In this document: in pieces, positions 9,291 through 42,390 of the stretch
Layout: each line of letters opens with the position of its first letter
Numbering within the stretch: the stretch's first letter is position 1
DNA from: Gordius sp. MW1
Taxonomy: Eukaryota > Nematomorpha > Gordioida > Gordea > Gordiidae
Assembly (NCBI GenBank): GCA_964036665.1
Contig: OZ038528.1
Span: 16,665,245 to 16,729,244, forward strand
Direction of reading: 5' to 3'
Length of the DNA stretch: 64,000 nucleotides
Made by a program: the position numbers and the translations under genes
Notes under the pieces: model-generated
What the model was told of the DNA's origin: nothing
Databases searched by the model: none
Seen by the model: only the letters and a program-made list of their open reading frames with translations

Positions 9291-9340
9291 TACCATTTAC
9301 TTTAACGTTTTTTTTATAAGTGTATGGGTTGGTTATGAAT

Positions 9341-10199: not shown

Positions 10200-10293
10200 A
10201 ATAAAATAACTAATTGAAGGATGGATAATTAAAAATATGCTTCTATGATCGACCACGTGATAATAATGCCAAAAATTGCATAATTTAAATTTT
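10200..10293 (+). repeat. Direct repeat, right copy
   Basis: Partner of 9341-9434; contains the same GCTTCTATGATCGACCACG block. Confidence 0.75.
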
Positions 10294-10345
10294 ATTATTT
10301 AATTTAAAATAATTTTGACCGTATACTGTAACATTTTTATACTTT

Positions 10346-10574
10346 TATCAAGATGGACCGACAGTTATCAGGTTAGACCGCTAATCTAGTGCACAAAATT
10401 TATTATATATATAAAAAATGATATCAGAAATACGTAACAACAATGATACAGCTGTAAAGATAAAAAAGATAAAGATTTATATATTCGTCAATCCGTTACA
10501 ATGTCGATAATTTACTTTTATATAATACAACTTATAATACAAATTCTTGCATGGAGAAGTTACAGATCTTCACA
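10346..10574 (-). repeat. Family 1 gypsy 3' LTR
   Basis: Element sense starts TGTGAAGATCTGTAAC and ends CATCTTGATA. 229 bp, nearly identical to 20891-21119. The last codons of ORF3 lie inside its 5' end. Confidence 0.88.
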
Positions 10575-11306: not shown

Positions 11307-11338
11307 CTAGATAAAATATAAACAGATTATCATATCAA

Positions 11339-13780
11339 TTATCTATGACGTAATTGTTCCACGTGCCGCACGTGTCTACCCGGAGAAGCTAGCACTTCTA
11401 TCTCGTACATTTTAGTACCTTTTGGAGATGGGATCTTAGCTTCTAACCATTTCTCTTTTCCTATATAATTTCGTGCCCACGATTTTAAATTTAGAATCGC
11501 CCTGTGATGTAGTGTCCAATCGTACGGATTGTAGCATCGTATCAACCGGCGTGTGTGGTAAACGGCCCAGGAATATTTTGCTAACCGGTTGCCGAGAAAG
11601 GAACCTTGGTGCGACGTTGTGGTAAAGTCGATAGAGCCAAGTCCCGTCCTTCTTGACCTTAGCGTTCTTCAACCATCGTTTCACCACCGCCACGTGCCTT
11701 TCCGCGAGTCCATTCGTACTCGGATGATACGGAGGTGTAAGTAAATGTTGTATTCCCCATTTACTACAAAATTGTTTGAACTCGACGCTGGCAAAAGCTG
11801 TGCCGTTGTCGGATACAATCTTCTTCGGTATACCATACGCACCTGCAAGATTTTTTAAGAAATCGACCACTACTTCCGTAGATAACTTGCTCACTTGTTT
11901 ATATTCAACCCAACTTGAGTGCGCATCTACGAGAATAATGTATCGTTTTCCTTCAAAATCAAAGAAGTCCAGGTGTACTCTTTCCCAAACTTGTTTTGCT
12001 GACGGCCATCTCGCCTTCTTGTCGTGTCTTGGGTCCTGGCAAGTTTTCCGCATTGCCCGCATTGTCCTACGTACAAGGTAATATCTCGCGATATCTTAGG
12101 CCATCAGACGTGTCTTTTCGCTAGACCTTTCATCTTGACTATGCCCGTATGTTCTGCATGAATTAATTCGAGTACCTGAGGTCGCAACACAGACGGAATT
12201 ACTATATTTTCGTTGCGTAGTAACACGTTGTTGTTGACCTCCAGTTCGTTTATCACGCTTCGATAAAAAGATGGTACCGTTTGCAGTGTACTTTTTCCCG
12301 TCAAGTAATTTAACACCAAAATTAAGTCTGGATCCTCTTGATTTTGCAAGATCGCCATCACCGCAATTTTGTGTTATTACATTTATTTCCGTGAAGTTTT
12401 CTCCCTCTAACTCTTCGAAAGTTAGGTCAGCATTATCGTTTCCCAGTCTTGATAATGTGTCTGGCAAGTGATTTGACTTACCTTTGCGTGTTGCATTGAA
12501 ATTTCCCAGCGCTAATAACCATTTTTGCAGCCTCAACTTAACAATAGATCCCTATTGTCCTTTACAAAAAGTGATATCAGCGGTTTATGGTCGGTTAAAA
12601 TATCGAAACTTCGACCAATTAAATATTCACGGCAACGGGTCAAACTCACTACTACCGCCAAAGCTTCCTTTTCAATCATTGAGTAATTAAGTTCTGCTTT
12701 GGAAAACTTTCGTGAAAAGTATAGGATTGGATGTTCTTCATGACCGATTACATGCACTAGCACACCGCCGACACCTAGCTGTGACGCATCCACCGCTACG
12801 GCTAATGGTAGATCGGAAACAAAGCATGTCAGCACCGGACCTTTACTTAAAATCTTTAACGCGTCGAACGCTTCCTGCTCCTTGTTCTGCCATACAAATT
12901 TTACTTTGTCTGTCGTCAACAAGTATAAAGGTGCCGCTATCTCCGCGATGTTAGGCATAAACATGTTATAGTAATTCACCGACCCAAGAAAGGATAGTGT
13001 CTCTTTCTTATTCTGAGGTGGTCGCATTTTAAGGATCGCATCCACTTTGCTTTGTAAGGGACGAACGACTCCATTACCCAATTGATGTCCCAAATATTTT
13101 AGTTCCGTTACTCCTATGGCGCATTTACTACGCTTTACCCGTAATCCTCTTTCCTAGAATCGTTCCAACACTGCCAACAAGTTATTATCGTGCTCTTCCA
13201 TTGTAGCTCCCACTACAAGAACGTCGTCTAAGTAGTAAAACACACCAAAAAGACCTTGTAATATAGATGCCATGGTCTTCTGAAACACGGGCGCACTTAG
13301 GCTGAGACCGAAAGGCAGTCTTTTAAACGCGAACAAGCCTAAGGACGTGTTTATTGTGGTCAACTTCGACGAGCGGTTATTTAACTTGATTTGGAGGTAA
13401 GCGTTAGCAAAGTGGAACTTACTAAAATATTTTGCACCTTTGAGATTTGCGAAAATTTCTTCTATTCTAGGTAGGGGGTACTTTATTTCTACCACCCAAG
13501 GGTTAAGCGAAACCCTGTAGTCCGCGCATAGGCGCAAGCTGCCATCCGGCTTTTTGACGGGTACCAGTGGCGTAGCCCATTCGCTATACTCCACCGGCTC
13601 GATTATCCCTTGCTCCACCCATTGTAGCAAGATGGCTTCTACCTTTTCCCGCCAAACAAACGGTATTCTTCGCGCTGGCCAAAACCTTGGTACAGCGTCT
13701 GGCTTCAGTAGGATATCATATTCGTATCCCCTTAGGCAACCAAGCTCGTCTATAAAGATAGCCTTGAACCTTTCCAGCAT
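11339..13780 (-). pseudogene. Gypsy pol copy A: RT, RNase H, integrase
   Basis: In element order: RT (13780-13154) with LDFANAYLQIKL replaced by FHFANAYLQIKL, FGLSLSAPVFQ and the catalytic YYLDDVLV; RNase H (13093-12533) with VAVDASQLGVGG, EKEALAVV and LTDHKPL; integrase zinc finger remnants (about 12180-12030, HAEHTGIVKMKG); catalytic core with HLDFFDFEGK, IVSDNGTAFAS and HPSTNGLAERH; C-terminus GRHVRHVEQLRHR. Broken by a stop after the RT (ERF*), several frameshifts and a small deletion in the integrase C-terminal domain. Stop TAA at 11339-11341. Confidence 0.88.
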
Positions 13781-14677
13781 CCGCTGTAGACTTCCTCACC
13801 AACTATTCAGCGGACTGCATCGCCACTCATAAGATTACGAGTGTCGGTAGAAGATGTCGGTTGATCCCCCGACTCCACTTTTACCGATAGTCCGTTTGTT
13901 TCGGCTCCGAGAGAGGTAGACTTTAGAGACCAAGCCATAAATGGCATCCTTAAGGGGTTCCTACCTGCTCCGCCTAAATCTTTTGCACCCATTTCCCGTG
14001 GTCCACTACATTGGATCTTCTCACATAAGCCAAACCAATTATTCAACGGCCCTATCACCTTAAGCCATTCCCACCCTAATATTGGTTTAATCTCCACGGA
14101 CGTAATATACAAGGGTAATATTAATTTTTTAATTCCTACCTCTACTTCAGCCATAACCTTACCCACTATATTTCTCCCCCGTCTACCTGTCTAGCCCTGA
14201 TATTCGTTTTCTCCCATTTCTTATTCGGCCAGGTAGACTTAAATTGTTTATCGCTTATTAGCGATATAGTTGCTCCACTGTCTCCTAACCATTCAATTAC
14301 CTTATTGTCAATTTTCAATTTAGTAAAGGGACGATTACTTTGTGTTAACCCTTCAAAAAACCTTTTAATTACATTTACGTAATTATCCTCCTCGTTACTG
14401 TTTAAACCCCTTACGGTTTTATCCGCCAACATTTTATTAATCCTTGTTACCCTTTTATTCCCAACCATTCCATTAATTGGTATTTTAATTTTATCCTCCA
14501 AAATCATATTAACCCCTGTTTCCTTTTTAGCTCCAACAATTTTATTTATTGCTGCAGCATTAATATCTCCCACAACTTTTTTTATCGTTAGTTCATGAAT
14601 ATTCCTTAAACCTTCGTTAACCCCCGAGTTTATTTTTATTCCGTTTTGATTCTTACCGCCAGGTGCTCTTAATACCT
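13781..14677 (-). pseudogene. Gypsy protease region, copy A, N-terminally truncated
   Basis: Carries EWLGDSGATISLIS, the retropepsin active-site motif, and the downstream KPILGWEWLKVIG block, then the linker to RT. Frames break near 14166 and 13807. Sequence matching the other copy ends at 14677, where an inverted segment begins. Confidence 0.85.
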
Positions 14678-14713
14678 CGAAATGGTTAGAAGCTAAGATC
14701 CTATCTCCAAAAG

Positions 14714-15460
14714 ATGGAATATAGAACGGAATGGGTGATCGTAGAAGTGCGTTTGAGAGCACTAGACGACGTACGTAGGGGGCGGCCGAGACCGATAGTG
14801 TTTGATGTACGGGAGCGACGGCGCATGGAACCCTACGTTAGCGTGCGCCACGAAAACACCCATACAGAAGAAAGGGCGGCGGACAGGCACAGAAGGTCAA
14901 CACGTCAGGAGGCGGCGAGACTCAATGCGGGCAGGCAAAACAACGCGGTACGCAGACACCGTGGCTAATCCCGAGGTTTAGCCGGACGAGTTGACAGGGG
15001 ACAGCGTCAGACTGTGGTCCCGCAAGCAGCCCGTACCACAACAACACAACGTACTCAAAACAACCAGAGACATCACGAGGGGAGGACAGAAGAAAGTAGA
15101 AGGTCACGTGGTCCACATGCAGGACAGCCGGTGACGATAAGACAAACGAGAGCATTCTGCGGGGGATGCAGAAGCTGGCACAGAATGCCGATGTGTAGGC
15201 GAGGGATCCAATCCAGGCCAGCAAGGCAGGAAAGGACGATACCGCCAGTAGAATCTGTAGTCTCGGTGGAGCCGATAGCGCCGGAAGTCACGATGACAAC
15301 GATGGAACCGGAACGTGTGGAAGAAGTTACCATGGACACCAGTCAGGGCGTGATCAGCCCTGAGGAAGAGATGGTATTATTGATGGGAAATACTCCAGGG
15401 CGGGATAGCACGGACCGGGTGGTCCCTCATTTTGAAAGGATGAGGTGTGAAGATCTGTAA
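14714..15460 (+). pseudogene. Post-pol ORF3, inverted copy (one nonsense codon)
   Basis: Full length, 249 codons, from MEYRTEWVIVEVRLRALDD to RMRCEDL, with one internal stop at about 14966-14968 (CAA to TAA). The knuckle CGGCRSWHRMPMC is unchanged. The same length and ends as copy A show that ORF3 is a fixed part of this family. Confidence 0.78.
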
Positions 15461-15668
15461 CTTCTCCATGCAAGAATTTGTATTATAAGTTATATTAAAT
15501 AAAAGTAAATTATTGATATTGTAACGGATTGACGAATATATAGATCTTTATCTTTTTTATCTTTACAGCTGTATCATTGTTGTTACGTATTTCTGATATC
15601 ATTTTGGATATATATAATAAATTTTGTGCACTAGATTAGCGGTCTAACCTGATAACTGTCGGTCCATC
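15446..15668 (+). repeat. Third gypsy LTR, inverted, missing its last bases
   Basis: Reads TGTGAAGATCTGTAACTTC... in plus sense, about 223 bp, and stops at GGTCCATC instead of running on to TTGATA. Opposite in orientation to the two outer LTRs. Confidence 0.85.
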
Positions 15669-16074
15669 CCTGTGGACCACGTGACCTTCTTCTTTCTTCT
15701 GTCCTCCCCTCGTGACGTCTCTGGTTGTTTTGCGTACGTTGTGTTGTTGTGGTACGGGCTGTTTGCGGGACCACAGTCTGACGCTGTCCCCTGTCAACTC
15801 GTCCGGCTAAACCTCGGGATTGGCCACGGTGTCTGCGTACCGCGTTGTTTTGCCTGCCCGTATTGAGTCTCGCCGCCTCCTGACGTGTTGACCCTCTGTG
15901 CCTGTCCGCCGCCCTTTCTTCTGTATGGGTGTTTTCGTGGCGCACGCTATCGTAGGGTTCCATGCGCCGTCGCTCCCGGACCTCAAACACTATCGGTCTC
16001 GGCCGCCCCCTACGTTTGTGGTCAAGTGCTCTTAAACGCACTTCTACGATCACCCATTCCTTTCTATATTCCAT
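15669..16074 (-). pseudogene. Post-pol ORF3, copy B, 3'-truncated
   Basis: Opens MEYRKEWVIVEVRLRALDHK and is uninterrupted for about 135 codons, including the two codons that are nonsense in copy A. At 15668/15669 it runs into the inverted LTR and ends with a junction peptide, stop at 15631. The knuckle is lost. The ATG lies 32 nt after the integrase stop, directly preceded by a pyrimidine-rich ...TTTTATCTAG that looks like a splice acceptor. Confidence 0.75.
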
Positions 16075-16106
16075 CTAGATAAAATATAAACAGATTATCA
16101 TATCAA

Positions 16107-18413
16107 TTATCTATGACGTAATTGTTCCACGTGCCGCACGTGTCTACCCGGAGAAGCTAGCACTTCTATCTCGTACATTTTAGTACCTTTTTGAGATAGG
16201 ATCTTAGCTTCTAACCATTTCTCTTTTCCTATATAATTTCGTGCCCACACAGCATCATCGATTTTAAATTTAGAATCACCCTGTGATGTAGTGTCCAATC
16301 GTACGGATTGTAGCATCGTATCAACCGGCGTGTGTGGTAAACGGCCCAGGAATATTTTACTAACCGTTTGCCGAGAAGGGAACCTTGGTGCGACGTTGTG
16401 GTAAAGTCGATAGAGCCAAGTCGCGTCCTTCTCGACCTTAGCGTTCTTCAACCATCGTTTCACCACCGCCACGTGCCTTTCCGCGAGTCCATTCGTACTC
16501 GGATGATACGGAGGTGTAAGTAAATGTTGTATTCCCCATTTACTATAAAATTGTTTTAACTCGACGCTGGCAAAAGCTGTGCCGTTGTCGGATACAATCT
16601 TCTTCGGTATACCATACGCACCTGCAAGATTTTTTAAGAAATCGACCACTACTTCCGTAGATAACTGGCTCACTTGTTTATATTCAACCCAACTTGAGTG
16701 CGCATCTACGAGAATAATGTATCGTTTTCCTTCAAAATCAAAGAAGTCCAGGTGTACTCTTTCCCAAACTTGTTTTGTTGACGGCCATCTCGCCTTCTTG
16801 TCGTGTCTTGGCGTCCTGGCAAGTTTTCCGCATTGCCCGCATTGTCCTACGTACAAGGTAATATCTCGCGATATCTTAGGCCACCAGACGTGTCTCTTCG
16901 CTAGACCTTTCATCTTGGCTATGCCCGTATGACCTGCAAGAAGTAATTCGAGTACCTGAGGTCGCAACACAGACGGAATTACTATATTTTCGTTGCGTAG
17001 TATCACGTTGTTGTTGACCTCCAGTTCGTTTATCACGCTTCGATAAGAAGATGGTACCGTTTCCAGTGTACTTTTTCCCGTCAAGTAATTTAACACCAAA
17101 ATTAAGTCTGGATCCTCTTGGACTAATTTTGCAAGATCGACATCACCGCAATTTTGTGTTATTACATTTATTTCCGCGAAGTTTTCTCCCTCTAACTCTT
17201 CGAAAGTTAGGTCATCATTATCGTTTCCTAGTCTTGATAATGTGTCTGGCAAGTGATTTGACTTACCTTTGCGGTATTTTAATTTTGCATTGAAATTTCC
17301 CAGCGCTAATAACCATTTTTGCAGCCTTAGACTTAGCAATAGATCCCTATTGTCCTTTGCAAAAAGTGATACCAGCGGTTTATGGTTGGTAAAAATATCG
17401 AAACATCGACCAATTAAATATTCACGGCAACGGGTCAAACTCACTACTACCGCCAAAGCTTCCTTTTCAATCACTGAGTAATTAAGTTCTGATTTGAAAA
17501 ACTTTCGTGAAAAGTATAGGATTGGATGTTCTTCATGACCGATTACATGCACTAGCACACCGCCGACACCTAGCTGTGACGCATCCACCGCTACGGCTAA
17601 TGGTAGATCGGGAACAAAGCATGTCAGCACCGGACCTTTACTTAAAATCTTCTTTAACGCGTGGAACGCTTCCTGCTCCTTGTTCCGCCATACAAATTTT
17701 ACTTTGTCTGTCGTCAACAAGTATAAAGGTGCCGCTATCTCCGCGACGTTAGGCATAAACTTGTTATAGTAATTCACCGACCCAAGAAAGGATAGTGTCT
17801 CTTTCTTAATCTGAGGTGGTCGCATTTTAGGGATCGCATCCACTTTGCTTTGTAAGGGACGAACGACTCCATTACCCAATTGATGTCCCAAATATTTTAG
17901 TTCCGTTACTCCTATGGCGCATTTACTACGCTTTACCCGTAATCCTCTTTCCTGGATTCGTTCCAACACTGCCAACAAGTTATTATCGTGCTCTTCCATT
18001 GTAGCTCCCACTACAAGCGTCGTCTAATTAGTAAAACACACCAGAAAGACCTTGAAATATAGATGCCATGGTCTTCTGAAACACGAGCGCACTTAGGCTG
18101 AGACCGAAAGGCAGTCTTTTAAACGCGAACAAGCCAAAGGACGTGTTTATTGTGGTCAACTTCGACGAGCGGTTATTTAACTTGATTTGAGATAAGCGTT
18201 AGCAAAGTCCAACTTATTAAAATATTTTGCACCTTTGAGATTTGCGAAAATTTCTTCTATTCTAGGTAGGGGATACTTTATTTCTACTACCCAAGGGTTA
18301 AGCGAAACCCTGTAGTCCGCGCATAGGCGCAAGCTGCCATTCGGCTTTTTGACGGGTACCAGTGGCGTAGCCCTTTCGCTATACTCCACCGGCTCGATTA
18401 TCCCTTGCTCCAC
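16107..18413 (-). pseudogene. Gypsy pol copy B: RT, RNase H, integrase
   Basis: 16107-18011 is one long open frame of 634 codons covering the end of RT, RNase H (VAVDASQLGVGG), the full integrase zinc finger (AGHTGIAKMKGLAKRHVWW... CGQCGK) and the integrase core (HLDFFDFE, VSDNGTAFAS, STNGLAERH) and C-terminus. Upstream, a short deletion at about 18017 destroys the YLDD active site (YYLDD in copy A) and shifts frame; further breaks lie near 18185 and 18414 (TGG to TAG). RT is therefore dead, although the integrase frame is intact. Confidence 0.88.
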
Positions 18414-19865
18414 CTATTGTAGCAAGATGGCTTCTACCTTTTCCCGCCAAACAAACGGTATTCTTCGCGCTGGCCAAAACCTTGGTACAGCGTCTGCCTC
18501 CAGTAGGATATCATATTCGTATCCCCTTAGGCAACCAAGCTCGTCTATAAAGATAGCCTTGAACCTTTCCAGCATCCGCTGTAGACTTCCTGACCAACTA
18601 TTCAGGGACCGAACTGCATCGCCACTCATAAGATTACGAGTGTCGGTAGAAGATGTCGGTTGATTCCCCGACTCCACTTTTACCGATAGTCCGTTTGTTT
18701 CGGCTCCGAGAGAGGTAGACTTTAGAGTCCAAGCCATAAATGGCATCCTTAAGGGGTTCCTACCTGCTCCGCCGAAATCTTTTTCACCCAATTTCCGTGG
18801 TCCACTACATTGGATCTTCTCACATGAGCCAAACCAATTATTCAACGGCCCTATCACCTTAAGCCATTCCCACCCTAATATAGGTTTAATCTCCAGGGAC
18901 GTAATATACAAGGGTAATATTAATTTTTTGATTCCTACCTCTACCTCAGCCATAACCTTACCCACTATTTTTATTTCTCCCCCGTCTACCTGTCTAGCCC
19001 TGATATTCGTTTTCTCCCACTTCTTATTCGGCCAGGTAGACTTAAATTGTTTATCGCTTATTAGCGATATGGTTGCTCCACTGTCTCCTAACCATTCAAT
19101 TACCTTATTGTCAATTTTCAATTTAGTAAAGGGACGATTACTTTGTGTTAACCCTTCAAAAAACCTTTTAATTACATTTACGTAATTATCCTCTTCGTTA
19201 CTGTTTAAACCCCTTTCGGTTTTATCCGCCAACATTTTATTAATCCTTGTTACCCTTTTATTCCCAACCATTCCATTAATTGGTATTTTAATTTTATCCT
19301 CCAAATTCATATTAACCCCTGTTTCCTTTTTATCTCCAACAATTTTATTTATTGCTGCAGCATTAAATATCCCCACAACTTTTTTTATCGTTAGTTCATG
19401 AATATTCCTTAAACCTTCGTTAACCCCCGAGTTTATTTTCATTCCGTTTTGATTCTTACCGCCAGGTGCTCTTAATACCTCTTTCCTCTCTTTTCTTACT
19501 TTTAAAGGAAAGCATCTCAAGGAGGGCTTACTATCTACTTGAAAATTTTTAACTGATTTTGATTGAGACATAATATTTTGTTGGGGAGGCGTAGATTTTA
19601 TAGAAGAAGAAAATGACCTGAAGGAGGGATATGCATGTGGCATATGTTGCTTTGAATATCTTATTAAAAGGGAAGGGGATAACAACGATGTTATTATTTT
19701 AGGTTTCTTGAAAGTTAAGGAAGTAGGGCATGTGCTTATCGAAAGGGACATTAAGGGAGGGATTATCGGTTTATTAAAGGGAACAGATCTGCTTAGGGAA
19801 GGGAAAGTTTTATTACTATTTTTGGTAATAGGGTTGGTGGGAATTCTACAAGGTTTGATTTTCAA
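18414..19865 (-). pseudogene. Gypsy gag-pol linker and protease, copy B
   Basis: 483 codons without a stop. The first 120 or so residues are proline/serine-rich (PSLSRSVPFNKPIIPPL) and derived from the gag-protease region. A lysine-rich stretch follows, then retropepsin with DSGATISLIS, the ILGWEWL block, and the connection to RT (ARRIPFVWREKVEAILLQ), where a nonsense codon ends it. Upstream gag is in other frames. Confidence 0.82.
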
Positions 19866-20876
19866 AAGACAGATGTTTATCTTATGGCTAAGTTTGATAG
19901 GTAGTGTTGAACCTATACTTACAGGAATATATTTAAAGGGGGTGGGCTGTTTATTAGGGTAAAGGGTTTTGATCTATTTACTAGGTCAGTGGGGGTAGGG
20001 ATTTGTATTAGGGGAGGGTGTATTTTTCTGTTTATTAGGGGAGGGTACTGTGGGTTACTTATTTTGTAAGAGGGTTTTAAGATATTTAACTTGGGAGGGG
20101 ATCTTTGAATTGTTATTTTGGGAATGGATTTTGGGATAATTATTTTGGGAGGGGATTTTAGGATAATTATTTTGGGAGGGGATTTTGGGATAATTATTTT
20201 GGGAGCTGGACTTAATTTTTTACGAGAATTATTTATAGTTATAGCAGCCCTCCCTGGTTGCTAATCATTTTCCCCTCTCCGGCACCTACAACTACAGGAC
20301 GGGTCAGGTTCTATTTTATCTACTTGTTTTTCAACCCTAAATTTGTTACTATAACCACTTCGGGGTCTTCCTTGCCATCCCCCACGCCCCTCTTCAGGGC
20401 AATTCCTTCTAATATGTCCCACCTTATTACAAAAGAAACACTTAAGCCCGTTTTTATAATCAATTGCGCATACTATTTCATTATTTTTCTTAATTAACCA
20501 CATTAAAATCATAATTATTACAATTAAAACTATTATAATCATATTCTCACGCAAACAATTAAATATTATGGTTACACTAAATTGTGGTGGTTTACTACCA
20601 AACATTTTAGCACAATTAAAGTAAAATATAAATGCTATGAATATTATAATGATGATAGTAGGAATTTTATAAACAGTATTCTTAATATTTTAAATGAAAA
20701 AAGAAAATATAGTATTAAAATTAAAAAATTCAAAAAAACTATGTTATTCATAAATTTCAACTATTTGAATGATACTTACGTAGTTCATCTAGAAGGATTA
20801 ACGTATTTTCTTGTTTCGAAATCTGGTATGAGTTTTTCTTTTTAGACTTCTCGTTGCTAAGGGTTCTTCTTTTTCT
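19866..20876 (-). pseudogene. Gypsy gag remains with zinc knuckle
   Basis: 20261-20605 encodes CFFCNKVGHIRRNC, a canonical C-x2-C-x4-H-x4-C nucleocapsid knuckle, followed by a basic GRGGWQGRPRSGYSNK tail. Between it and 19866 lie near-repeats of CCCAAAATAATTATCC, a low-complexity linker. Only about 270 bp separate the knuckle ORF from the primer-binding site, so most of gag is deleted or scrambled. Confidence 0.75.
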
Positions 20877-20888
20877 CTTCTGACACCA
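20877..20888 (-). promoter_or_regulatory. Primer-binding site, tRNA-Leu type
   Basis: Element sense TGGTGTCAGAAG, 2 nt after the 5' LTR. This is complementary to the 3' end of leucine tRNAs (…CTTCTGACACCA), the primer of many animal gypsy elements. Confidence 0.7.
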
Positions 20889-20890
20889 GT

Positions 20891-21119
20891 TATCAAGATG
20901 GACCGACAGTTATCAGGTTAGACCGCTAATCTAGTGCACAAAATTTATTATATATATCCAAAATGATATCAGAAATACGTAACAACAATGATACAGCTGC
21001 AAAGATAAAAAAGATAAAGATCTATATATTCGTCAATCCGTTACAATGTCGATAATTTACTTTTATATAATACAACTTATAATACAAATTCTTGCATGGA
21101 GAAGTTACAGATATTCACA
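20891..21119 (-). repeat. Family 1 gypsy 5' LTR
   Basis: 229 bp; differs from 10346-10574 at about five positions by eye. Followed in element sense by the primer-binding site. Confidence 0.88.
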
Positions 21120-21204
21120 ACTTTTAAATATCTAATTCGAGAAAACTTCAGCCTGGTATGTATGACGTCATTATTGTATATGATGCTACAAATGAAACTG
21201 GCCG

Positions 21205-21510
21205 GGAAATGTCCGATATTTTTAAAACAAAAAGGTATTTTAGGAATCTGAAAAGGCTATCTTCCCCCTGGCCGCCCTGGGCATATATGGCTAGATTTTC
21301 GCGCGAATCGGGCCGGTACAAAGTTTAGCCCTTTTTTAAAACGTAATGTCTGATATTTTTAAAACGAAAAGGTATTTTAGGGATCTGAAAAAGCTATTTT
21401 ACTCCTGGCCGCCCTGGGCATCTACGGCTAAATTTTCGCGCGAATCGGGCCGGTAGTTTCAGAATTTAGCCCTTATCCACATACATACATACACACATAC
21501 ATAGACTTTA
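21205..21510. repeat. Two tandem copies of a 130-140-bp GC-patch repeat
   Basis: The block AATGTC(C/T)GATATTTTTAAAAC...GGCCGCCCTGGGCAT...TTTTCGCGCGAATCGGGCCGGTA occurs at about 21208-21330 and again at 21344-21452, ending in a CATACATACATACACACATACAT microsatellite. Probably the end of a mobile element, class not determined. Confidence 0.6.
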
Positions 21511-21775
21511 CTTTATATAAATATTTAGATACCAGCTAAAAAGCGGATTTGTTACTATAAAATTAATTATCACATCACTTCAGTTTCTCTATATATTTAG
21601 TATCATAACTATCTAAATTAGCAAACTATTCTTAATTCGTTGATGATATTAACGACTAATAATTAACTCAATTATTTAATATGATTTTGTTAAATTTTTT
21701 CGCAGATCTTAGGTAAAAAAACATCCCTGCATATATATCTCAGTCAAAACTTATATGGTATGGTCATTATTTGTT

Positions 21776-21830
21776 TTAATTGCTATGCAATATATGGGCT
21801 TGTTTTTGGGTCCGTCCGTCTTGTCTAACT
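21776..21830 (+). mobile_element. Helentron-like 5'-end fragment
   Basis: TTTTAATTGCTATGCAATATATGGGCTTG matches the start of the element at 31681 and of those at 55115 and 47325, then the TGTCCGTC tract. Confidence 0.6.
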
Positions 21831-21889
21831 TGTATTTTTCAATAATTTCTGTGAAAACTACGTGTTTTTAATGGCTGTGGACTTATGCT

Positions 21890-22165
21890 TTTATAAGAGC
21901 CTTTTAGCTTTATAACGGACAATTGCAAAACTGGCTAAATAATTACCTGCAGTTAATGCTGACCGTTGCCTATAACTAATTTGTCCAACCGACTAGAGTT
22001 CAAACACCTTAGCAATTGCTATTTATTTTTGCTGCTTCATGATTTTTTTGGCAACTTGTCTATGTTATGATTTATAAGGGATTATTGCGAAACTGACTAA
22101 ATAATTACCTGTAAATTAATGATGACCGTTGCTTACTTTTATTTCATCTGACCCCGGCCAGAGAC
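21890..22165. repeat. Two diverged tandem copies (about 180 bp each)
   Basis: GACAATTGCAAAACTGGCTAAATAATTACCTG... (from about 21916) recurs as GATTATTGCGAAACTGACTAAATAATTACCTG... (from about 22080), both followed by TGACCGTTGC. Nothing coding seen. Confidence 0.55.
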
Positions 22166-22299
22166 CAAAATCCATTTTTATTTTCGTGCCTGCAGGTTTT
22201 GGTATCTTATTTTCAAATTTATCAAGAAACCAAGCATTTAATAATTAATGGCAATCTATTATGAGTCTCGGAGCTAGGGGAAGTGTTTTATCTCGAAAA

Positions 22300-23128
22300 A
22301 TGGGAGAAGTACTGTGAGCTGATGGGGGGTTTCATCCTTTATTATACTTGGCACCTTTAATCCCTTTTACTGATATCCTCCAAACAACTTTGTTCAATTC
22401 ACTTTATTAATTGCAAAATTACTCCAGAACTCACGCCCAATAACAATGATATATAGATATAACTACGTAACTACGAAACGAATTACGGTACAATGATAAT
22501 AGCGCGGGGATATATTTTCTAGCTATTAAAAAAGGGGGAAAACTGGTTTCAATTGGGAAACTTTTTAGTTCTGGGGAGTATCGATTTCCATGGGGTTTTT
22601 ATAGGTTCGATTTTCTTGGCTTATATTTTTATCCTTGAAACCTCTTTACTTTTTCAACCATTTTTCCGTGCCAACTTTTGATGGATGGCCCTTCACTTCC
22701 CAGGATCTTGGAATCTTCGGCTGACAGTTCGAGGTCTCCGCAACGTTTCTTGGGCCAATTCGTTATTTACTACCCGGCTCTGTTGTTTCCTTGCTTTTCC
22801 CCGCTACTTTTCTCGAGCCAAGTCGTGATTTATAGACTTGTTTTGTTGTATCCTTGATCTATTTTGTTACCCACAATCTTTGATAACCTTCCTCCGTCCT
22901 TAGCTCGCTTTTCGAAGCCAATTAACGATCCAGAGCCTACCATTCCTTAAATGGAGTGGTTCCTTTTTTTAGAGTTTCTCATGGATACTGACACCTCCCT
23001 TTTTTCGGGGATCACGTCTCGGGGGGGGGGGGAAGGGGGGGTTCTTCTGTTCAGTGGTTCCCGGTGGGTAAGTTGAGCAGGTGGTTGAAGCAGGTGGTTG
23101 GATTAGGTGGGTGAAGCAGGTGGTTAGG
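22300..23128 (-). mobile_element. Probable 3' non-coding/LTR region of the second gypsy
   Basis: Directly downstream (minus sense) of pol and ORF3. It holds a minus-sense AATAAA at 22403-22408, imperfect repeats of about 115 bp (CGAGCCAAGTCGTGATTTATA and relatives), a G-run and a GCAGGTGGTTGGGT minisatellite at 23070-23168. LTR borders could not be fixed because the other LTR is not in the window. Confidence 0.4.
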
Positions 23129-23359
23129 TCAGGTGGTTGGCTCAGGTGGGTGAAGCAGGTGGTTGGGTTTTCTCGGCTGTCGGCCCTTATCTTGGTTATT
23201 CGCCAGCCGGGTTATTGGGACTCGTCTAATTTTTCGCCGTGAGATGGTACCTGCTATGAAATATAAATGCTGCCCGATCCCTAATACAGGATCGGTAGCC
23301 ATATCGTCTTCTACCTCAAACCTTTTTAAGTTATAATGGCTTTTATTACCCATTAACAC
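23129..23359 (-). CDS. Short ORF downstream of ORF3 in the second gypsy, unassigned
   Basis: 76 codons starting MLMGNKSHYNLKRFEVEDDM. It ends in proline-rich codons from the GGTGGTTG minisatellite. No domain seen; it could be part of the element or chance. Confidence 0.2.
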   Translation of the reverse strand: MLMGNKSHYNLKRFEVEDDMATDPVLGIGQHLYFIAGTISRRKIRRVPITRLANNQDKGRQPRKPNHLLHPPEPTT

Positions 23360-23475
23360 ACAAAATCTTCACATTCACATATGGGGAATACATTACATTA
23401 ATAACACGTCAAACGGGGAACAAATTATATAATTAACGCGGGGGGGGGGGGTTTATTATGTACATATTAGGGCCA

Positions 23476-23859
23476 TTATTCTGCGGAAGTGGTCGTTTCC
23501 ATGATATCTTGGCCTTTCCTTTCTTCCAGCGTGAACCTTTTCAATCTTTCCTCGATCTCTTCAAATACGTTCGTCAAGAGCATGTCGTCTGTTTGGGTTC
23601 CTACATTTTTGAAATTGTCCTCCTTCTTCGCCTTCTCCACTTTTTCCCTAGTCCATTTTTTCTTATTTCCTTTTGTTGGGCATTTTCTTCCCCTGCTCCT
23701 CCAGGGACACGTCTGCCATCGATGGGTATCTCGTTCATCACATATATAACACACGATTCCCTCTACCTGCACGTCCGACCAATAGTAACACTGCCACGTT
23801 CTATGGCTGTCATATTGCAAGCACACTTTACATTGGAGCTGTAATAAAATAGATTTCAT
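23476..23859 (-). CDS. Post-pol ORF3 of gypsy family 2, two zinc knuckles
   Basis: 127 residues, intact, its ATG about 5 nt after the integrase stop. Two tandem motifs with identical spacing, CKVCLQYDSHRTWQC and CYICDERDTHRWQTC, both C-x2-C-x5-H-x4-C, are followed by a highly charged helix-prone tail (KKKWTREKVEKAKKED, EEIEERLKRFTLEERK). This is a nucleic-acid-binding type of architecture and not an envelope: there is no signal peptide and no membrane segment. It parallels ORF3 of family 1, which sits in the same place and also carries a knuckle. Role in the element unknown. Confidence 0.65.
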   Translation of the reverse strand: MKSILLQLQCKVCLQYDSHRTWQCYYWSDVQVEGIVCYICDERDTHRWQTCPWRSRGRKCPTKGNKKKWTREKVEKAKKEDNFKNVGTQTDDMLLTNVFEEIEERLKRFTLEERKGQDIMETTTSAE

Positions 23860-23866
23860 TCCCCTA

Positions 23867-25060
23867 CTGGTCTCGTCGCCGTAACTGGTCGATATGCCTC
23901 CAGAATTCCAGTCCGTTTTCTATCGTTACTCGACACCTTAACCCTCCCTCTACTGCTACAACCAACCCTTTTACCCATTTACGAGGACCTTGGTACATCT
24001 TAACCCAAACTCTGTCCCCTAATTTAAAACGGGCCGCCCTCTCTATATGACCCTTTCTTTCCCCTTTTTAACTCGTCCAGCCATACTCGACCTCTTCGTC
24101 CCAAAAATCTCGATGATGGGGGCTGGCCATCTATTCCCTCCACGTTATGATACATCAACTTCATCTGCCACTGTTTGGATGGCCCACTCTTCTCCTTAAG
24201 AATCCATCCCTTAACCACTCCAACCATCCTCTCGACTTGCCCGTTGGAACTGGGGTGATATGGTGGGGTGATGATATGTTCTATCCCCTGACTTCCACAA
24301 AATTCCTTAAATTTTACGCTACTAAACGCTGGCCCTCCGTCGGACACTATCAATTTGGTAACCCATATCGCGCCAATAGTCCTTTCAATACCCTTATTAC
24401 GATTCGGGTCGAACTCTAACTAACCCTTTCATACTCTACCCATTTGGTACAGGCGTCCACCGCTATAAAATATACCCTACCTAGACATTCGAAAAAATCT
24501 AGATGGACCCTATCCCAAGGATTTTGCGCCTTAGCCCATTGACTACCTTTTTATTTGGGCGGCATCGTGGCTATGTTATTGCATGCCTCACATTGCCTGC
24601 ACCTCGATTCTATATCATTTTTAATATCTGGCCACCAGATATATTCTCGCGCCCATCTCTTCATTTTCACCATGCCTTGATGTCCCTTGTGTATTTCCTT
24701 TAACACCTCATCCCTTAACTTATTGGGGATAATTAACTGTAGACCTTTCATAACACACCCATTCACTACACTTAATTGTCTTTTGATTTTTTGGTACTTT
24801 CTTGATGCGAGGGGCCACTCAGTTTCTCCTCTGATACACTGGTTCAACTTCTTTAGTTCGGTATCCACTTCCGTCGCTTCCTTGACATCCATCCAGGAGA
24901 CTGGTCCTCCGTCCGATATTCTTAAAATGTATGGTTTTAAAGCAATGATATAAGAACATATTATCATATTTGCAACTTCAACATGGCAGGACAGGACATT
25001 TTTTCCATAGGAAAACCCGTCAACGTACATCTTTGGCAACCTAAACTTTATATTGATATA
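23867..25060 (-). pseudogene. Gypsy family 2 integrase (3' part of pol)
   Basis: 24551-25039 has the H2C2 zinc finger (HKGHQGMVKMKRWAREYIWW ... CRQCEAC). 24024-24353 has the core motifs VSDGGPAFSS and HPSSNGQVERM. 24022-23870 encodes the C-terminal domain (GDRVWVKMYQGPRKWVKG ... WRHIDQLRRR). The strand between (about 24360-24550) carries the first core aspartate region but is out of frame. RT, protease and gag are not present; homology stops near 25060, so the element is 5'-truncated. Confidence 0.8.
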
Positions 25061-26840
25061 TGATCTTTGTCCAACATTATTATTATATTTACTATACCTG
25101 CTGCATCATAATTTTTCCCAACACTTGATATGTATAACTCATTACTCACAAAAAATTGCAATTGAATTTTGCAAAATACGAAAAGTGATTTTACTGGCAT
25201 AACTTGCAGAAGGCCCAACCATAGTGTTATGCTGTTAAAGCTCTCTAATTTTTATTAAAATAGCAAAACTGCGATTTACTTAAAAGTCTTTAATATTGAT
25301 TTTGCTGAGTCCTCGCTCATTGAAAACGTGCTTAGTAATCATGCACCAATTTTTAAAGACATAAGACTAGTATCAAAAATAAATCATGTCAGTACTAATT
25401 GCGGCTTCATAAAAGATCTGCTTATAATCTTATTTCATAGCACCTCACAATTTTTAATGCTGTCAGCAACAAATCAGATTGTGATAAATTGTCAGAATAA
25501 TTCAAAAAATTGAGAAGAGCCACAAAAAAATAAATTTAGAAATTTTCATTGATAATAAATTTACTTTTAAAATGGTCTACCTCGATTGAAGCAATTTAAG
25601 ATTTTATATTACAGCTCGACCTTTGGTATTTGCAAACAGTTTACATATATTCAATCATTGACTCTATTTTTAACATAATTTCTTTATTTAATTATACATG
25701 GCTCGATAAATAAATTAGAACAGGTTTCACGTGGAACGCTATCGTTGACAAACGAACTATTAGAACTGTAACATGCCATTAGGTATTTTATTCTAGAAAC
25801 TCTAATATTTTAAATTATCAAATCAATAAAGTTTGATTTATATTATACATAAAAGGAAATTCAAATATTATGTAAGACACTTAGTTTTGTTATATATAAT
25901 ATCCGTATTGATTCTGAACAATTAATTCTAGATAAATGAAATATAATAAATTTATATTTTAATTGAAAAAAATATATATAATATAATCTAAAAAATGAAT
26001 AAAAATATCCTATCTCTCTATCCATATAAGGTAGAGTAAGATAGAAACTAGAAATTTCTTAAACTCTACGTTGTAGGGAACGATATGATGATATTAAAAA
26101 AAATTAAACTGGAATCTTTTAAAACGGAGAAACTACAACTAAAAATTTTTAAGGCAAAGGAATAGTCAAAGGAACTTGTTCCTTTCATTCTAAAACAGTT
26201 TTTTTTGTTTTTATGGAAGGTGTAAGACCTATATGTACTTGGAATTTTATACTCCGATACGATACCTATAAATATTATTGAAAAGCATTAGGTAGCACAG
26301 GAATCATTAAAGCAGGCTTTATTAGAAGTAATCAAAAATTGCAATCTAAGGTGAAATTTAAGTTTTTTTGGGGGTTTTACATGTCTATATAACAAAACAA
26401 GATAATGTATGTAACTTATTGGTTATTTAGTGTGGAAATTTGAATTTCATTTTCGGTGATTTTTACAGAAATGAACAATATATAACTAAATTTAATAAAT
26501 TATTTTTCGATATATAAAAATTCAGCAAAGAACTATAAAAGAATTAGAACCTAAACTAGTTCTTTTAGAACGAGTAAGAACTTGGTAGTGAAGTAATTCC
26601 ATTTTGAGTAATGAAAATAGACACTGGAACTAGTACAATATTTGTTAAATTTAACTACTTTAGTATTTGGGCTATGAGAAAGGTGCATGGTTTGAAAGGA
26701 CTACTCCGTAGTTTCGAATATTTAATGTACTTGTATTTTATTTTTAAATTGGGGTTTCGAAGATAAGTAAATATCTGACTCGTCCTGACCCACAAACTAT
26801 GCCTATGCTATATTAAATAATAAAAATATTTTACAAGTAT
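25061..26840. other. AT-rich spacer upstream of the hAT-like gene
   Basis: No repeats, TIRs or recognisable coding sequence. A 61-codon plus-strand ORF at 25328-25513 shows no domain. A promoter for the next gene may lie here but none is recognisable. Confidence 0.4.
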
Positions 26841-29228
26841 ATGCTAAATGAAAATATATTATGCATTAGGGATGATAATGACGCAGCATGCCAATCAGGT
26901 CATCTCATTCAAGAAGACCCCTATTATTTTCCTAATTTTTCTAACATTCCAAGCCAGCATAATAATTGCGGATCGAAAATTGTGGACATAGTTGAATCTC
27001 CGTCAAATTTAAACATCAATCAACAAAAAAGAGGACCAGTCAATGTTACGAGCACGCATTTGAGAAAGAAGAGTGGAGCTTGGCTTTTCTTTCAACTGTC
27101 CCCCTATGATGAATCCCAGTCCATTTGTAAATTATGCGGGAAAGTGATTTCGCGAGGTCCATCGCAGGGTAATAACAAAAGGTACTCCACATCACCAATG
27201 CTAACCCACCTCAGAAATAAGCACCCCCAACATTACGAATATATGGAGCAATACGTAGCCATGCAAAGAATGTCGACACAAAAAGGCGCTAATTTTGCCA
27301 AAAATAATGTAACCGGAAATTTGGATAATGTGGGAAAGGATAAAATTTGCGATAAAGCCAGTTTGACCCAAAGTTATGACGAGGTAATGAAGCAAGATGG
27401 TCAAAATACTTCTGGACAATGGCCAATAAAAACGAAAATGTGTTATGAGATTAGAAATGATACCTTGAAAAACAATTGGATGACGGATGGTATAAAATGC
27501 AAAAAAGTCTTATATAGCGGGGAAAGAAAAACAGTTTCTAAAAAGAGAACGATATGTAAACTGGAAGGTGAAATATCTTTGCAGTCAAAGGGTCTTGACA
27601 CAAGCTTAGAAAATTCCAAATTGATGATTGAAGAAGATGAAGTGGTAGAAGTTGATAGTAGTCCTAATGATAGCAACATCTCAATTTCACCTTCATTAAT
27701 AAGTGAAGATAGGAGGAAAAGCACGATAGAGCAGAAAGTGGACGTCTATCTTATGAAATTATTGTTCGATACGGCTAAAGTAAATTTTAATCTATTAGAA
27801 AACGAGCATTTTATTCATTTATGCCAAGCTTTACAACCTACATATCAACTTCCAGAAGGGAAAAATAAACTGATGAGTTTCCTGAATCGTGTGGCACAAC
27901 TAATGGAACAAAATATTAAAGTGAATCTAACGAGCATCGTTTGTTTAGAACCTAGAATTCCTATCAATCTGATTATCCTACAAAATCAATCTACTACAAC
28001 GTCGATTCTAAATTACGTCAATAATTATGATACAAAGGAAAACATTTTTATAAAACCCCAGTACTTTGAAAATGAACATTCTACCAAAGAAGAATATGTG
28101 CCCAAAATCTTAGCCAATCTACCATGTTACGGGGTAAAGGAGGACATGCTCCATGCCGTGTTATGGCTCAACCTAGCAAATCCAGAGGAGTCAAATTTAA
28201 GCCAACCACAAAACTGGCCTGTACTTAAGGGCACATATGTATTAGCCGCTACAATATATGATTTGGGGCAAGTTGTGAACGATAAAGTAAAAAATATTTT
28301 AAAGGAATTGATCTACGATAGTCTATCGATTTCACAAGTTGACGAGGGTGTTAAGAGAGAGCAAGCAGGATACATAGATGTTTATTTTACAAGCCTTTGT
28401 CGCGCCTACCCGCTGCGATACATTGTTTATTGGTTTAGGATTATGTGCCTAAAGATAAATGAAGGAAGGGAAGAAAGCCGCGAAATGCACGACGGACTGC
28501 TTAAAGCTATATATGAACTAGCAACCAAATGGGACCAATATGGCGGAGGAGACTATAAAGTCCCATCTGACGTTAGTCGGGTAATTCCTTATTACGAGGA
28601 GGTCTTGAATGCAGTTACTACTTGTCTGGATGAGTTAAAACTTCCCGACCAAAATGACCAAAATAGCGGCTTTGACTTAATTCTAAAGAATTTAAAGGCT
28701 TGGCCAACCCTGTTGAGGGAAAGGTTATACAAGGGAATAAACGCCACACCAGGTGCCATAACCTATTTCAGCCTGGCAACATTCCTGAATCCCTCTTACA
28801 ATAACACACCTTATATAACTACTGTTCCTCGGGTGTGGGGTGACGTTAAAAATCTCTTGCTAGCGGAGTTCTCCAAAAATAACATAAATTGCGCGTACGA
28901 TTGGCGAGAGACGAGTAACGACTTTTGGTTGAAGTGGAGAGCTTTTATGGAGGAAATTTCTAGCTACAGGGAGATTAAGGTGGATATTGCCAAAGGAAGG
29001 AATTGCCCCGACATTCTAGACGCTATGACTTGGTGGAATAATAATAAAAATAAGTTTCCATTTTTGTATGGCATAGCTCGAATCTATATGGGTATTCCCT
29101 TGCATTTGAATAATCTGGAGGAAAATATCTTACTCGCAGATAAAAACGGGCTGAAGCCGTCGGACTTCAATGATTCAGAAATAGCAGATAAAATTCATTA
29201 TTTATGCGCGAACCAGAAATATATTTAA
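26841..29228 (+). CDS. BED-finger, hAT-transposase-derived protein, probably domesticated
   Basis: 795 residues in one uninterrupted frame. A BED zinc finger lies at 78-130: W81, C96-x2-C99 (SICKLCGKVI) and H123-x4-H128 (THLRNKH). An acidic linker follows, then hAT-core sequence: LLENEHFIHLCQALQPTYQLP (about 315-340) matches the family block before the first catalytic region; ATFLNPSYN (about 652) matches the ATFLDPRY block; MTWWNNNKNKFPFLYGIAR ... LKPSDF (about 730-780) is the hAT dimerisation domain. Where hAT enzymes have the T-D-x-W aspartate motif this protein has KVNLTSIVCLEPRI, with no aspartate, and no C-H-x-L-N-L block is seen. A likely nuclear DNA-binding protein without transposase activity. 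No TIRs or 8-bp duplications were found around it. The ATG is the first in the frame. Confidence 0.8.
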   Translation: MLNENILCIRDDNDAACQSGHLIQEDPYYFPNFSNIPSQHNNCGSKIVDIVESPSNLNINQQKRGPVNVTSTHLRKKSGAWLFFQLSPYDESQSICKLCGKVISRGPSQGNNKRYSTSPMLTHLRNKHPQHYEYMEQYVAMQRMSTQKGANFAKNNVTGNLDNVGKDKICDKASLTQSYDEVMKQDGQNTSGQWPIKTKMCYEIRNDTLKNNWMTDGIKCKKVLYSGERKTVSKKRTICKLEGEISLQSKGLDTSLENSKLMIEEDEVVEVDSSPNDSNISISPSLISEDRRKSTIEQKVDVYLMKLLFDTAKVNFNLLENEHFIHLCQALQPTYQLPEGKNKLMSFLNRVAQLMEQNIKVNLTSIVCLEPRIPINLIILQNQSTTTSILNYVNNYDTKENIFIKPQYFENEHSTKEEYVPKILANLPCYGVKEDMLHAVLWLNLANPEESNLSQPQNWPVLKGTYVLAATIYDLGQVVNDKVKNILKELIYDSLSISQVDEGVKREQAGYIDVYFTSLCRAYPLRYIVYWFRIMCLKINEGREESREMHDGLLKAIYELATKWDQYGGGDYKVPSDVSRVIPYYEEVLNAVTTCLDELKLPDQNDQNSGFDLILKNLKAWPTLLRERLYKGINATPGAITYFSLATFLNPSYNNTPYITTVPRVWGDVKNLLLAEFSKNNINCAYDWRETSNDFWLKWRAFMEEISSYREIKVDIAKGRNCPDILDAMTWWNNNKNKFPFLYGIARIYMGIPLHLNNLEENILLADKNGLKPSDFNDSEIADKIHYLCANQKYI

Positions 29229-29394: not shown

Positions 29395-30107
29395 CTTAAA
29401 AACCTGTCTAGGCCAAAATATTGAGCTGCGGATCGATCCATACCCGCATAAATATATCTTTTTCGCCCCGTACCCAGCCCGCAGATTTAACCATGAAAGG
29501 CTCCAGGCCCACATTGTTTCAAATTTTTTATATGTGTAATAAAACGTTTACAAAAGAGTAATTCTCGATTATAAATAAACGATGCGCGACACATACAAAA
29601 TTATAATATATTGTTTTTTAAAAATAAAAGACTTTCTATTTTATTGGGCTATAATCTGGTCTTTTTCTCTTTTACAACACAACTTGCTTTAGTAAAAGTG
29701 CCCTCACTTATGGCGCTCAGAGCTGGAATTGACTGAATCACTATAATTAATTTAAAAATTTTGATATCAATGGTTGATTATTTCAACGATAAAAGCACAT
29801 CTGACTTAAAATCCGCAGGTTTTAAATTCTGTTCGAGATAAAAAATCTAAAATTTATTAATCATAACTGTTTATAAATTATTGCCTTTATTATTATTAAA
29901 AATCCTAGACCTATTTAATAATCAAATGAAATTTTATTTCCCTTAAAGTACTACGTAGTGCCTTCGTTCTTATTCATAAGTGTAAAAAATAGCAAAAAAT
30001 CCGAACTGTTTTACTTATCTAAGCCCAAGCCCGGCCAGGACTTTTATTCGGCGGGCAGGCCTTAGGCCTACTGACATCGGGCTGGCCCGGTCCATGCAGA
30101 CCTCTAA
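29395..30107. mobile_element. GC-rich hAT-like MITE, ends unclear
   Basis: GC blocks (CCCGTACCCAGCCCGCAG near 29470; CCCGGCCAGGACTTTTATTCGGCGGGC near 30030) surround an AT-rich middle, as in the elements at 1126 and 41628. The right end reads ...CCATGCAGACCTCTA, the reverse of a TAGAGGTCTGCATGG hAT-type end. The left end (near TCTAGGCC, 29405) does not match it well, so the outline is approximate. Confidence 0.45.
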
Positions 30108-30184: not shown

Positions 30185-31568
30185 TCTTATATATAAAAAT
30201 GAAACTATGTGTGTATGTGTGTATATGTGTATGCCGCCACCAATTTTGTAAAACTACCAGACCGATTTAGCTCAAAATTTCACAGTTTATTCCCCATACT
30301 CCGGAGCATGTTTTAAGGTTTGTTCCAGCCTAATGGTCCAGTAGTTTTCGAGAGGTCAAGTTTTTTTTGTTTTATAAGTTTTGGCACTTAATAAAGACGT
30401 CATATGACGTCATTTTGTGACAACAATCAAATTTAATAATGATAAGACGTTTATTTTTATTCAGAAACAATACAAATAATCAGAATTGTTTTAAAAGTAA
30501 ATTTTTTCCATCCCGATAAGCTACAAATAATCGGAGCCTTTTTTCCCATCCCGACAATCTACAAATAATCGGAGCCGCCAACAATTTTGGAAAACTCCTA
30601 GACCTATTTGGTTCAAAATTTTACACTTCATTCCTGACACTCCGGAATGCGAAAAAAATTTTTTTATCTACAAATAATCGGAGCCTTTTTTCCATCCCGA
30701 CAATCTACAAATAATCGGAGACGCCAACAATTTTGGAAATTTACCAGAATTTCATTCAAAATTTCACACTTCATTCCTGACACTCTGGAATGCGATAAAA
30801 ATATGCACAATCATCATTTGGGATGAATGTACGATGGCAAATAAAAAGCACTCGAGGCGCTGGATTGTATACTCCGAGATTTGAGACAGATTGCACGTCC
30901 TATGGGAGGAGCTCTCTTGCTGCTAGCCGGTGACTTTCGTCAAACCTTGCCAGTCATCCCAAAGTCAACACCCTCAGATGAGCTTGATGCTTGCCTGAAA
31001 GCGTCATATCTTTGGAGAAGTGTGAAGATAATCACGCTAACCACCAACATGCCTGTTCATTTACTTCAAGATGATTCGGCGCAACCATTTGCTAACCAAC
31101 TGTTGGACTTGGGAGACGGTAAATTTCCAATTGAACCTACAACGCACGAAATATCATTTCAATCGCACTTTTACAAAATACAGTCATCAATTGAAGATGT
31201 CGTAAATATAGTGTTCCCGGAAATTCTTATTAACTTCACAAATCACGACTGGCTTTATGAACGGGCTATCTTGGCTCCGAAGAATGACGACGTGAACAAA
31301 ATAAATAATCGCATTCTATTGAACATTCCCGGTGAAACATTTACTTACACATCTGTTGACATAGTTATCGATGCAGATCAGGCGGTGAATTATCCAACTG
31401 AATTTCTAAATTCATTGAAACCATCGGAAATGCCACCTCACAAATTGATTCTGAAAATTGGTTCACCTATAATGATCCTTCGCAATTTAAATCCACCTAA
31501 GTTGTGTAACGGAACCAGCATCGGGAACCCGGGTAAATGGCAAAACAACGTTTGCCGGGTTCATCTAG
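30185..31568 (+). mobile_element. Helitron, internally deleted
   Basis: The 5' end TCTTATATATAAAAATGAAAC follows an A (30184); the 3' end ATCTAG (CTAG at 31565-31568) precedes a T (31569), so the insertion lies between A and T as Helitrons do. Near the 3' end AACCCGG...CCGGGTT can pair. 30230-30800 contains three diverged direct copies of a GCC(A)CCAATTTTG...CTCCGGAATGCG block with ATCTACAAATAATCGGAGCC spacers. Rep and the N-terminal helicase half are missing. Confidence 0.85.
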
Positions 31569-31593
31569 TATATTATAAAGATCAAGCTTATTA
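30818..31593 (+). pseudogene. Helitron PIF1-type helicase, C-terminal part
   Basis: Begins at WDECTMANKKALEAL (about 30819), the Walker B region of PIF1-like helicases, and continues in one frame (ATG at 30881) with LLLAGDFRQTLPVIPKS, WRSVKIITLTTNMPVHL, RAILAPKNDDVNKINN and a final LRNLNPPKLCNGT block. The Walker A half and the HUH replication-initiator domain are absent. The last dozen or so codons are read through the Helitron 3' terminus into flanking DNA. Confidence 0.85.
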
Positions 31594-41627: not shown

Positions 41628-42390
41628 CAGAGATCAGATTGCCCGGCCCGGTGTTCGAACAGGCCCGGCCCGTCTGTCATAAATTTTTATTTTCGGGCGG
41701 GCACGAAGAAGATAGGATTCGGGCAATTCGGGCTTAATGAGATTTTTTAGATAGTGTATTTTTTTGTTACTTTTCATTAAATTGCATATGAAAATGCTAA
41801 AAAATCGCCATCCGTCCCCAAGTTATTTTTACAATTTTTGCCAGAACCCCTTTATTTCCATCAAGTCCTTAGCTAGGTTTGGAAAGGATTAAAATATTTA
41901 TATTTATGCAGCCCTTTCATTGTTCGTAATTCGCATGTGCCGTCTATACATAGTACAAAATCGTCACGGCCAAATTGATACAACGCCTGAAAGTGTTAAA
42001 TTTCATTATAATATCATTTAATTTTTTTAAACGAATGATTTAACAAGGCTTCTCCAATTCGCTCTTATTATTCCCTTATCACTCATCGCTAGCTAAGCTC
42101 AAATATTTTAGAAAGACCAAATACTACGTTTTTTGACCAATTAGGATTAAAATTAAAGTACAAAAGTTTCATTTGAAAAAATCATTCGACTTTTAAATAT
42201 TGAAAGAATTTGAGGTCGCAAAATTTCGAGCCTAACAGGCAAATTTAATATTTCGGGCCGGGCATTTCGGGCAGCATTAATGTTTCGGGCGGACACCAGA
42301 AGGGTTCGGGCGGGCTCGGGCGGGCAATTAGGTTTGAGAATTGAAACGGGCTGGGTTCGGGCAGAAAATTCCTAACAAATCTGGCCTCTG
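41628..42390. mobile_element. GC-rich hAT MITE, copy 2 (763 bp)
   Basis: Starts CAGAGATCAGATTGCCCGGCCC and ends AAATCTGGCCTCTG. A perfect 8-bp duplication acacttac lies at 41620-41627 and 42391-42398. Ends and GC tracts match copy 1 (1126-1568); the AT-rich middle is about 320 bp longer and different. Confidence 0.88.

Follow-up and report, generated by a model that had tools for sequence, protein, structure and literature searches.

A hAT-derived BED-finger gene, probably domesticated and catalytically dead, in the horsehair worm Gordius sp. MW1

A long open reading frame (ORF) of hAT transposase type in the genome of the horsehair worm Gordius sp. MW1 raises the question of whether it belongs to a transposon, mobile or fossil, or to the host. 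The ORF (26841-29228, forward strand, as are all features below unless stated) lies in a stretch of 64,000 nucleotides, C2:16665245-16729244, of an assembly of 212 Mb in 12 contigs. This whole stretch is called the window, and residues and codons are numbered from the ORF. An earlier note, made from the letters of the window and their translations, had described the ORF as an intact and probably domesticated BED-finger gene. Our analysis points to a domesticated hAT host gene of the worm, with a probability of about 0.72; its product would be catalytically dead, two of the three catalytic residues having been lost. This reading is based on hAT ancestry along the protein, non-acidic residues at two catalytic positions (D1 and D2), the lack of transposon ends nearby, the presence of the gene at three places only, and purifying selection after a duplication.

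An open frame with a divergent hAT core

The ORF encodes 795 amino acids (aa) and ends in a stop codon. From stop to stop it extends over 803 codons, a length that is not due to chance because the local G+C content is 32-35%. The frame shared with two further copies on contig C9 (see below) begins at codon 6. The open frame and its two terminal domains, as described in the earlier note, were real. Pfam placed a BED zinc finger (zf-BED) at residues 80-129 (27078-27227) with an E-value of 2.4e-8, above the cut-off, and the finger also matched that of ZBED2 (E 0.009). The hAT dimerisation domain (Dimer_Tnp_hAT; E 4.3e-4) was found at residues 724-754 (29010-29102), where the hAT profile described below also places the C-terminal dimerisation region. 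Its score of 20.5 bits was just below the cut-off of 21.4, which the C9 copy exceeded with 22.1 bits.

Between these domains the earlier note had found some 350 residues that matched nothing. This holds for searches with the single sequence. BLASTP of the ORF against an intact hAT from the worm's own genome recovered the dimerisation segment alone at E<0.01, and a protein database search that scored 7,994 candidates had no match at E<=0.001. Neither copy matched the NCBIfam library of bacteria and archaea, and a search of viral contigs gave no match to the ORF. The missing database homologue is weak evidence of uniqueness, because few proteins of near relatives seem to be in the database, where the best match to L035, a complete hAT from the worm's genome, reaches only 48% identity. 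The same residues did align colinearly with hAT transposases, as a divergent hAT core, both in a profile and in a family alignment. The profile was built from the 120 best of 295 matches together with L035, of which 100 sequences of 430-800 aa were used. The family alignment (A3) held 44 of those 120 hATs, L035 and the three gene copies, hand-chosen for length and spread. In both, a hAT N-terminal helical segment containing FNLLENEHFIHLCQALQPTYQLPEGKNKL (residues 305-364, 27753-27932; domain 2 of the profile) follows a less constrained linker (about residues 130-304, 27228-27752).

Catalytic columns were located in 30 resampled alignments. The D1 column held an acidic residue in none of them; it was a gap in 16 and otherwise N376 or I378. 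These residues lie a few positions downstream of VNLTSIVCLEPR (residues 361-372), where the earlier note had put D1. By eye we had taken I366, inside that string, for the D1 position, and replaced it with N376/I378 or a gap once the family alignments were made. The copy in the window contains no aspartate between residues 311 and 396, a stretch that includes the whole D1 region (residues 366-378, 27936-27974). At D2 (residues 437-447, LHAVLWLNLAN, 28149-28181) the column was likewise never acidic, and was filled most often by L443 (16/30), followed by A446 (10/30) and N444 (4/30); N444 stands at an invariant asparagine column. The CxxH motif that follows D2 in hATs (C in 97 and H in 96 of the 100 profile sequences) is missing, with no C..H spacing anywhere in the C2 protein. 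Further along, TKW at residues 562-564 (28524-28532) is a remnant of the hAT TRWNST motif, W564 being aligned in 25 of the 30, and in the family alignment LNP at residues 649-651 (28785-28793) replaces hAT LDP. The catalytic glutamate is kept. E760 (29118-29120) occupied its column in 30/30 alignments, and this column is invariant in the family alignment; the RxFS that should follow is not kept. The loss of catalysis put forward in the earlier note thus stands for D1 and D2 and does not extend to the glutamate.

The predicted structure is hAT-like and matches Hermes (PDB 6dww, 4d1q, 2bw3) at 15% identity, its fold being drawn from 45 hAT alignment rows. A structural match with an intact DDE triad, which the earlier note had named as the mark of an ordinary transposase, was absent. 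The protein is presumably made. From its retained domains it would bind DNA through the BED finger and dimerise through the hAT region, and with two catalytic columns non-acidic it is predicted to be unable to cut DNA. Its role would most likely be that of a dimeric, sequence-specific regulator of transcription or chromatin, acting on genes or repeats.

Segmental duplication and selection on the frame

A protein search of the genome at E<=0.001 gave four matches, three of them gene copies and the fourth, at 46% identity on C2, a BED finger alone. The two other copies lie at C9:548561-550930 and C9:235009-237378; they are 91-92% identical to the window gene, and their two places are 99.98% identical to each other over 5,370 bases. 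Two stretches of 80 kb were read from C9, which is 1.37 Mb long. The similarity between C2 and C9 extends through the flanks as seven blocks, which span 5638-35304 of the window and keep their order on a 7.4-kb island (C9:545696-553094). On C2 the blocks are interrupted, mainly at 6232-25205, and the intervals between them are read as C2 insertions or C9 losses. Among the 40 candidates scored out of 3709, the 2.8 kb upstream of the C9 copy matched the three gene places only, if some short matches and an internal repeat (about 160 bases) are set aside. Because the flanks are colinear, we infer that the copies are related by segmental duplication and not by transposition of an element. The C9 island starts within a receptor-like ORF of the window (4562-5812, reverse strand) and truncates it; C2 is therefore probably the original place and C9 derived from it. 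That ORF is a single exon of 416 aa, seven-helix receptor-like by eye and without a Pfam match above cut-off, and its 5' piece lies on the island.

Two trivial accounts of the C9 copies were rejected. They do not represent an allelic haplotig, since across the 80 kb of C9 compared the similarity to the window is limited to the 7.4-kb island inside satellite, nor a contaminant, since the same satellite is present on C1-C4, including the start of C4.

An antisense relic lies just downstream of the gene, at 29557-29615 of the window (reverse strand) and at C9b 42281-42382 (reverse strand). Its C9 version encodes 34 residues that are 50% identical to residues 349-382, and it is perhaps the trace of a second diverged copy.

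We then compared the C2 and C9 frames. The ratio of nonsynonymous to synonymous substitution (dN/dS, omega), a check suggested in the earlier note, was 0.356-0.387. Over 787 codons dN was 0.040 and dS 0.111, giving the lower value (bootstrap 0.25-0.54). A codon model of 782 of these codons, with the first four and one other left out, gave the higher value and rejected an omega of 1 (twice the log-likelihood difference, 2dlnL, 20.15; p 7e-6). By part, in small samples, omega was 0.19 for the BED finger (codons 76-135, 7 changes only), 0.53-0.56 for the N-terminus and linker (0.56 for codons 136-310), 0.22-0.25 for the core and 0.35 for the dimerisation region (5 changes), while the last 30 codons yielded none. 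No stop codon was seen, against about 5.1 expected if the 120 substitutions are placed at random (P 0.005); on C9 the only in-frame stop is at codon 5.

The strongest sign of selection on the frame is a deficit of insertions and deletions (indels). The 2,364 aligned coding bases contain two, of 6 and 9 bases, both in frame. The flanks contain 27 in 1,992 bases (17 in 1,182 upstream and 10 in 810 downstream), of which three are multiples of three. Had the coding bases gathered indels as fast as the flanks, they would be expected to contain 32 (P(<=2) = 7e-12). The dS of 0.11 is close to the divergence of the flanks (8-12%), so there is no sign that gene conversion has kept the copies alike. The frame has therefore been conserved since the duplication; it is no fossil that happens to be open. 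Purifying selection that follows a segmental duplication speaks positively for use by the host, and supports the host recruitment proposed in the earlier note.

These results bear on two rival explanations. One holds that the ORF is an immobile fossil transposase, evolving neutrally and open by chance. hATs are indeed abundant in this genome (150 of 150 scored hATC candidates matched, these being the 150 best of 3413) and two catalytic residues are gone, as a fossil might show; with two in-frame indels against about 32 expected, no stops against 5.1, an omega well below 1 and no sign of gene conversion, we regard a fossil as very unlikely. The other holds that the C2 gene is functional and that the C9 copies, carried along in satellite, have become pseudogenes, so that all the constraint lies on the C2 branch. 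It is favoured by the absence from C9 of the window's ATG and by the truncated receptor-like ORF, which makes C9 probably the derived place. An unconstrained C9 branch should nevertheless have gathered about 16 indels, half the flank rate, where two are seen on both branches together (P 1.6e-5, assuming that flank indels are split equally), and we consider this explanation unlikely.

A domesticated host gene remains our preferred reading, and several points weigh against it. The pairwise omega is moderate. Neither copy matched the Pfam hAT-like RNase-H family, though the complete hAT of the same genome does. The exact D1 column is unstable across the resampled alignments. D397 and D474, aspartates common to both copies, are conceivably a shifted catalytic pair, with contexts that do not match. 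AlphaFold run with the three copies alone gave an unusable model (predicted local distance difference test score, pLDDT, 37), so the Hermes match depends on the alignment. Lastly, the window's ATG is lost from the frame in C9 owing to a 1-base deletion, which leaves the start codon uncertain: either the C9 copies have no normal start, or the gene uses an exon further upstream.

Our proposal is an upstream exon that carries the start codon. A candidate splice acceptor at 26859-26870, TTATGCATTAG followed by G (TTATGCTGTAG followed by G in C9), is kept on C9 though the ATG frame is broken there; the exon would begin at 26870. Three conserved ATG-to-GT candidates have the right phase, and two of them start from the ATG at 26674, open to a GT at 26727 or 26733. 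The candidate coding exon is thus 26674-26726, with an alternative donor after 26732. Its ATG and phase are conserved in C2 and C9, and its donor sites are poor.

Transposon ends, neighbouring elements and satellite

The remaining rival is a still or recently mobile element, or the cargo of another one. Terminal inverted repeats (TIRs) with an 8-bp target-site duplication (TSD) were sought within about 2 kb either side of the gene. One pair was found, compared with none or one in each of 12 shuffles, and none was above chance. Many near-identical copies with TIRs, the finding that in the earlier note would have marked an ordinary transposase, did not appear; the genome search put the gene at three places. 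A 159-base element resembling a miniature inverted-repeat transposable element (MITE), at C9:546869-547028, has ends GGGCGTACSCAGG and an 8-9-base TSD, and at least about 38 further matches in the genome. It breaks into the C9 flank, and C2 lacks it; hAT-type insertions therefore occurred after the duplication. The earlier note had suggested that the protein may bind the ends of nearby hAT MITEs; the end sequence of this element, the one hAT-type MITE identified, was sought in the window as a single pattern and was not found there at up to one mismatch. A PIF1-helicase frame (30845-31591), a Helitron-type remnant, lies 1.6 kb downstream of the gene. C9 carries the gene and nothing matching 30209-31559, where most of the PIF1 frame lies, and carriage of the gene by a Helitron-type element was rejected. 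The nearby helicase frame and the MITE movement since the duplication speak for mobility or carriage; given the three places only, the chance level of TIRs and TSDs, the missing PIF1 match on C9 and the lack of acidic residues at D1 and D2, this explanation is very unlikely.

The earlier note had also described every other transposon coding region in the window as shattered. This was overstated, since two frames, Gypsy-like by eye, are open from stop to stop, one of 638 aa (16107-18023) and one of 519 aa (18414-19973). A G+C-rich repeat region at 48925-51029 reads GGGGVFCPPPLIFYPLSHQ in several frames.

Elsewhere in the genome, the complete hAT L035 (C6:5653500-5660000) consists of two transposase copies arranged tail to tail. 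Both have an open frame of 573 aa, flanked on the outside by a BED match (150 of 641 candidates scored), and L035 is possibly a recently active element. At C4:199605-1669437 hAT and mitochondrial-DNA matches form pairs that roughly mirror each other across the two strands (356383 and 1486135, for instance), suggesting either a large palindrome or an effect of assembly. Contig C12 appears to be mitochondrial, with the best COX1 match and, by eye, adjoining COX2- and ND1-like frames. Its COX1 is 95% identical to that of Gordius sp. VVA-2019 and 88% identical to that of Gordionus alpestris, which marks the host as a horsehair worm (Nematomorpha). Long nuclear COX1 copies are found at C8:2829490-2830827, C5:673008, C1:25290196 and C3:92760, one of which spans the full profile length.

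Outside the gene island, the 160 kb read from C9 (L017-L032) consist mostly of an 11-bp satellite (TCCGTTGTCCG), in arrays of opposite orientation on either side of the island. On C4 the satellite begins at base 146, and among the matches listed it is scattered over C1-C3; a 24-base piece of it has 16,544 exact matches in the genome. The satellite may form chromosome ends in the worm. A speculative extension, to which we give little credence, is that a dead hAT-derived gene was copied into the satellite and kept there by selection, with a possible role in the satellite (packaging, perhaps at chromosome ends) or in conflict over it; the C2 and C9 proteins would then be diverged partners or antagonists able to form mixed dimers. 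The gene does offer a natural test, since its two versions, of which the first lies in ordinary sequence and the second within a satellite array, have both been kept open.

Comparison with known systems

Hermes, the structural match, is an active transposase with a complete triad, unlike the worm protein, which shares 15% identity with it in a model built on hAT rows. Nematodes, the sister phylum of Nematomorpha, offer another parallel. The LIN-15B domain is reported to have an RNase-H fold like that of hAT transposases and ZBEDs, and may aid DNA association and repression; genes with this domain (ivph-3, gon-14) are lineage-restricted and apparent in a subset of Caenorhabditis only (PMC12570147). 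LIN-15B, likened here by description only, is reported with THAP-type domains, whereas the worm protein has a BED finger. The SLEEPER/DAYSLEEPER genes of flowering plants are also domesticated hAT transposases, DAYSLEEPER being reported as essential for development (PMC3499209); the likeness drawn is one of origin. The gene thus appears to join a known kind, that of hATs recruited by their hosts to bind DNA, which has arisen several times (ZBED, SLEEPER and perhaps LIN-15B).

A survey of nine phyla counted 71 ZBED-type factors, and its main text does not name Nematomorpha (PMC10027918). Among the papers listed in our literature searches on horsehair worms, no title or opening of an abstract reports a domesticated hAT gene, and a horsehair worm case would add a phylum to the domesticated hATs. 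The comparison with ZBED genes drawn in the earlier note holds for the kind of gene and is not a close one for its catalytic residues. Vertebrate ZBEDs, described as DNA-associated regulators with known syntenic orthologues (PMC3606216), resemble the worm protein in having a BED finger, a hAT catalytic-domain region and a hAT dimerisation region, and in being kept as host genes. They belong to a different phylum and are reported to conserve the whole DDE triad (PMC3606216), in contrast to the worm protein, in which two catalytic residues are lost and the glutamate column alone is acidic.
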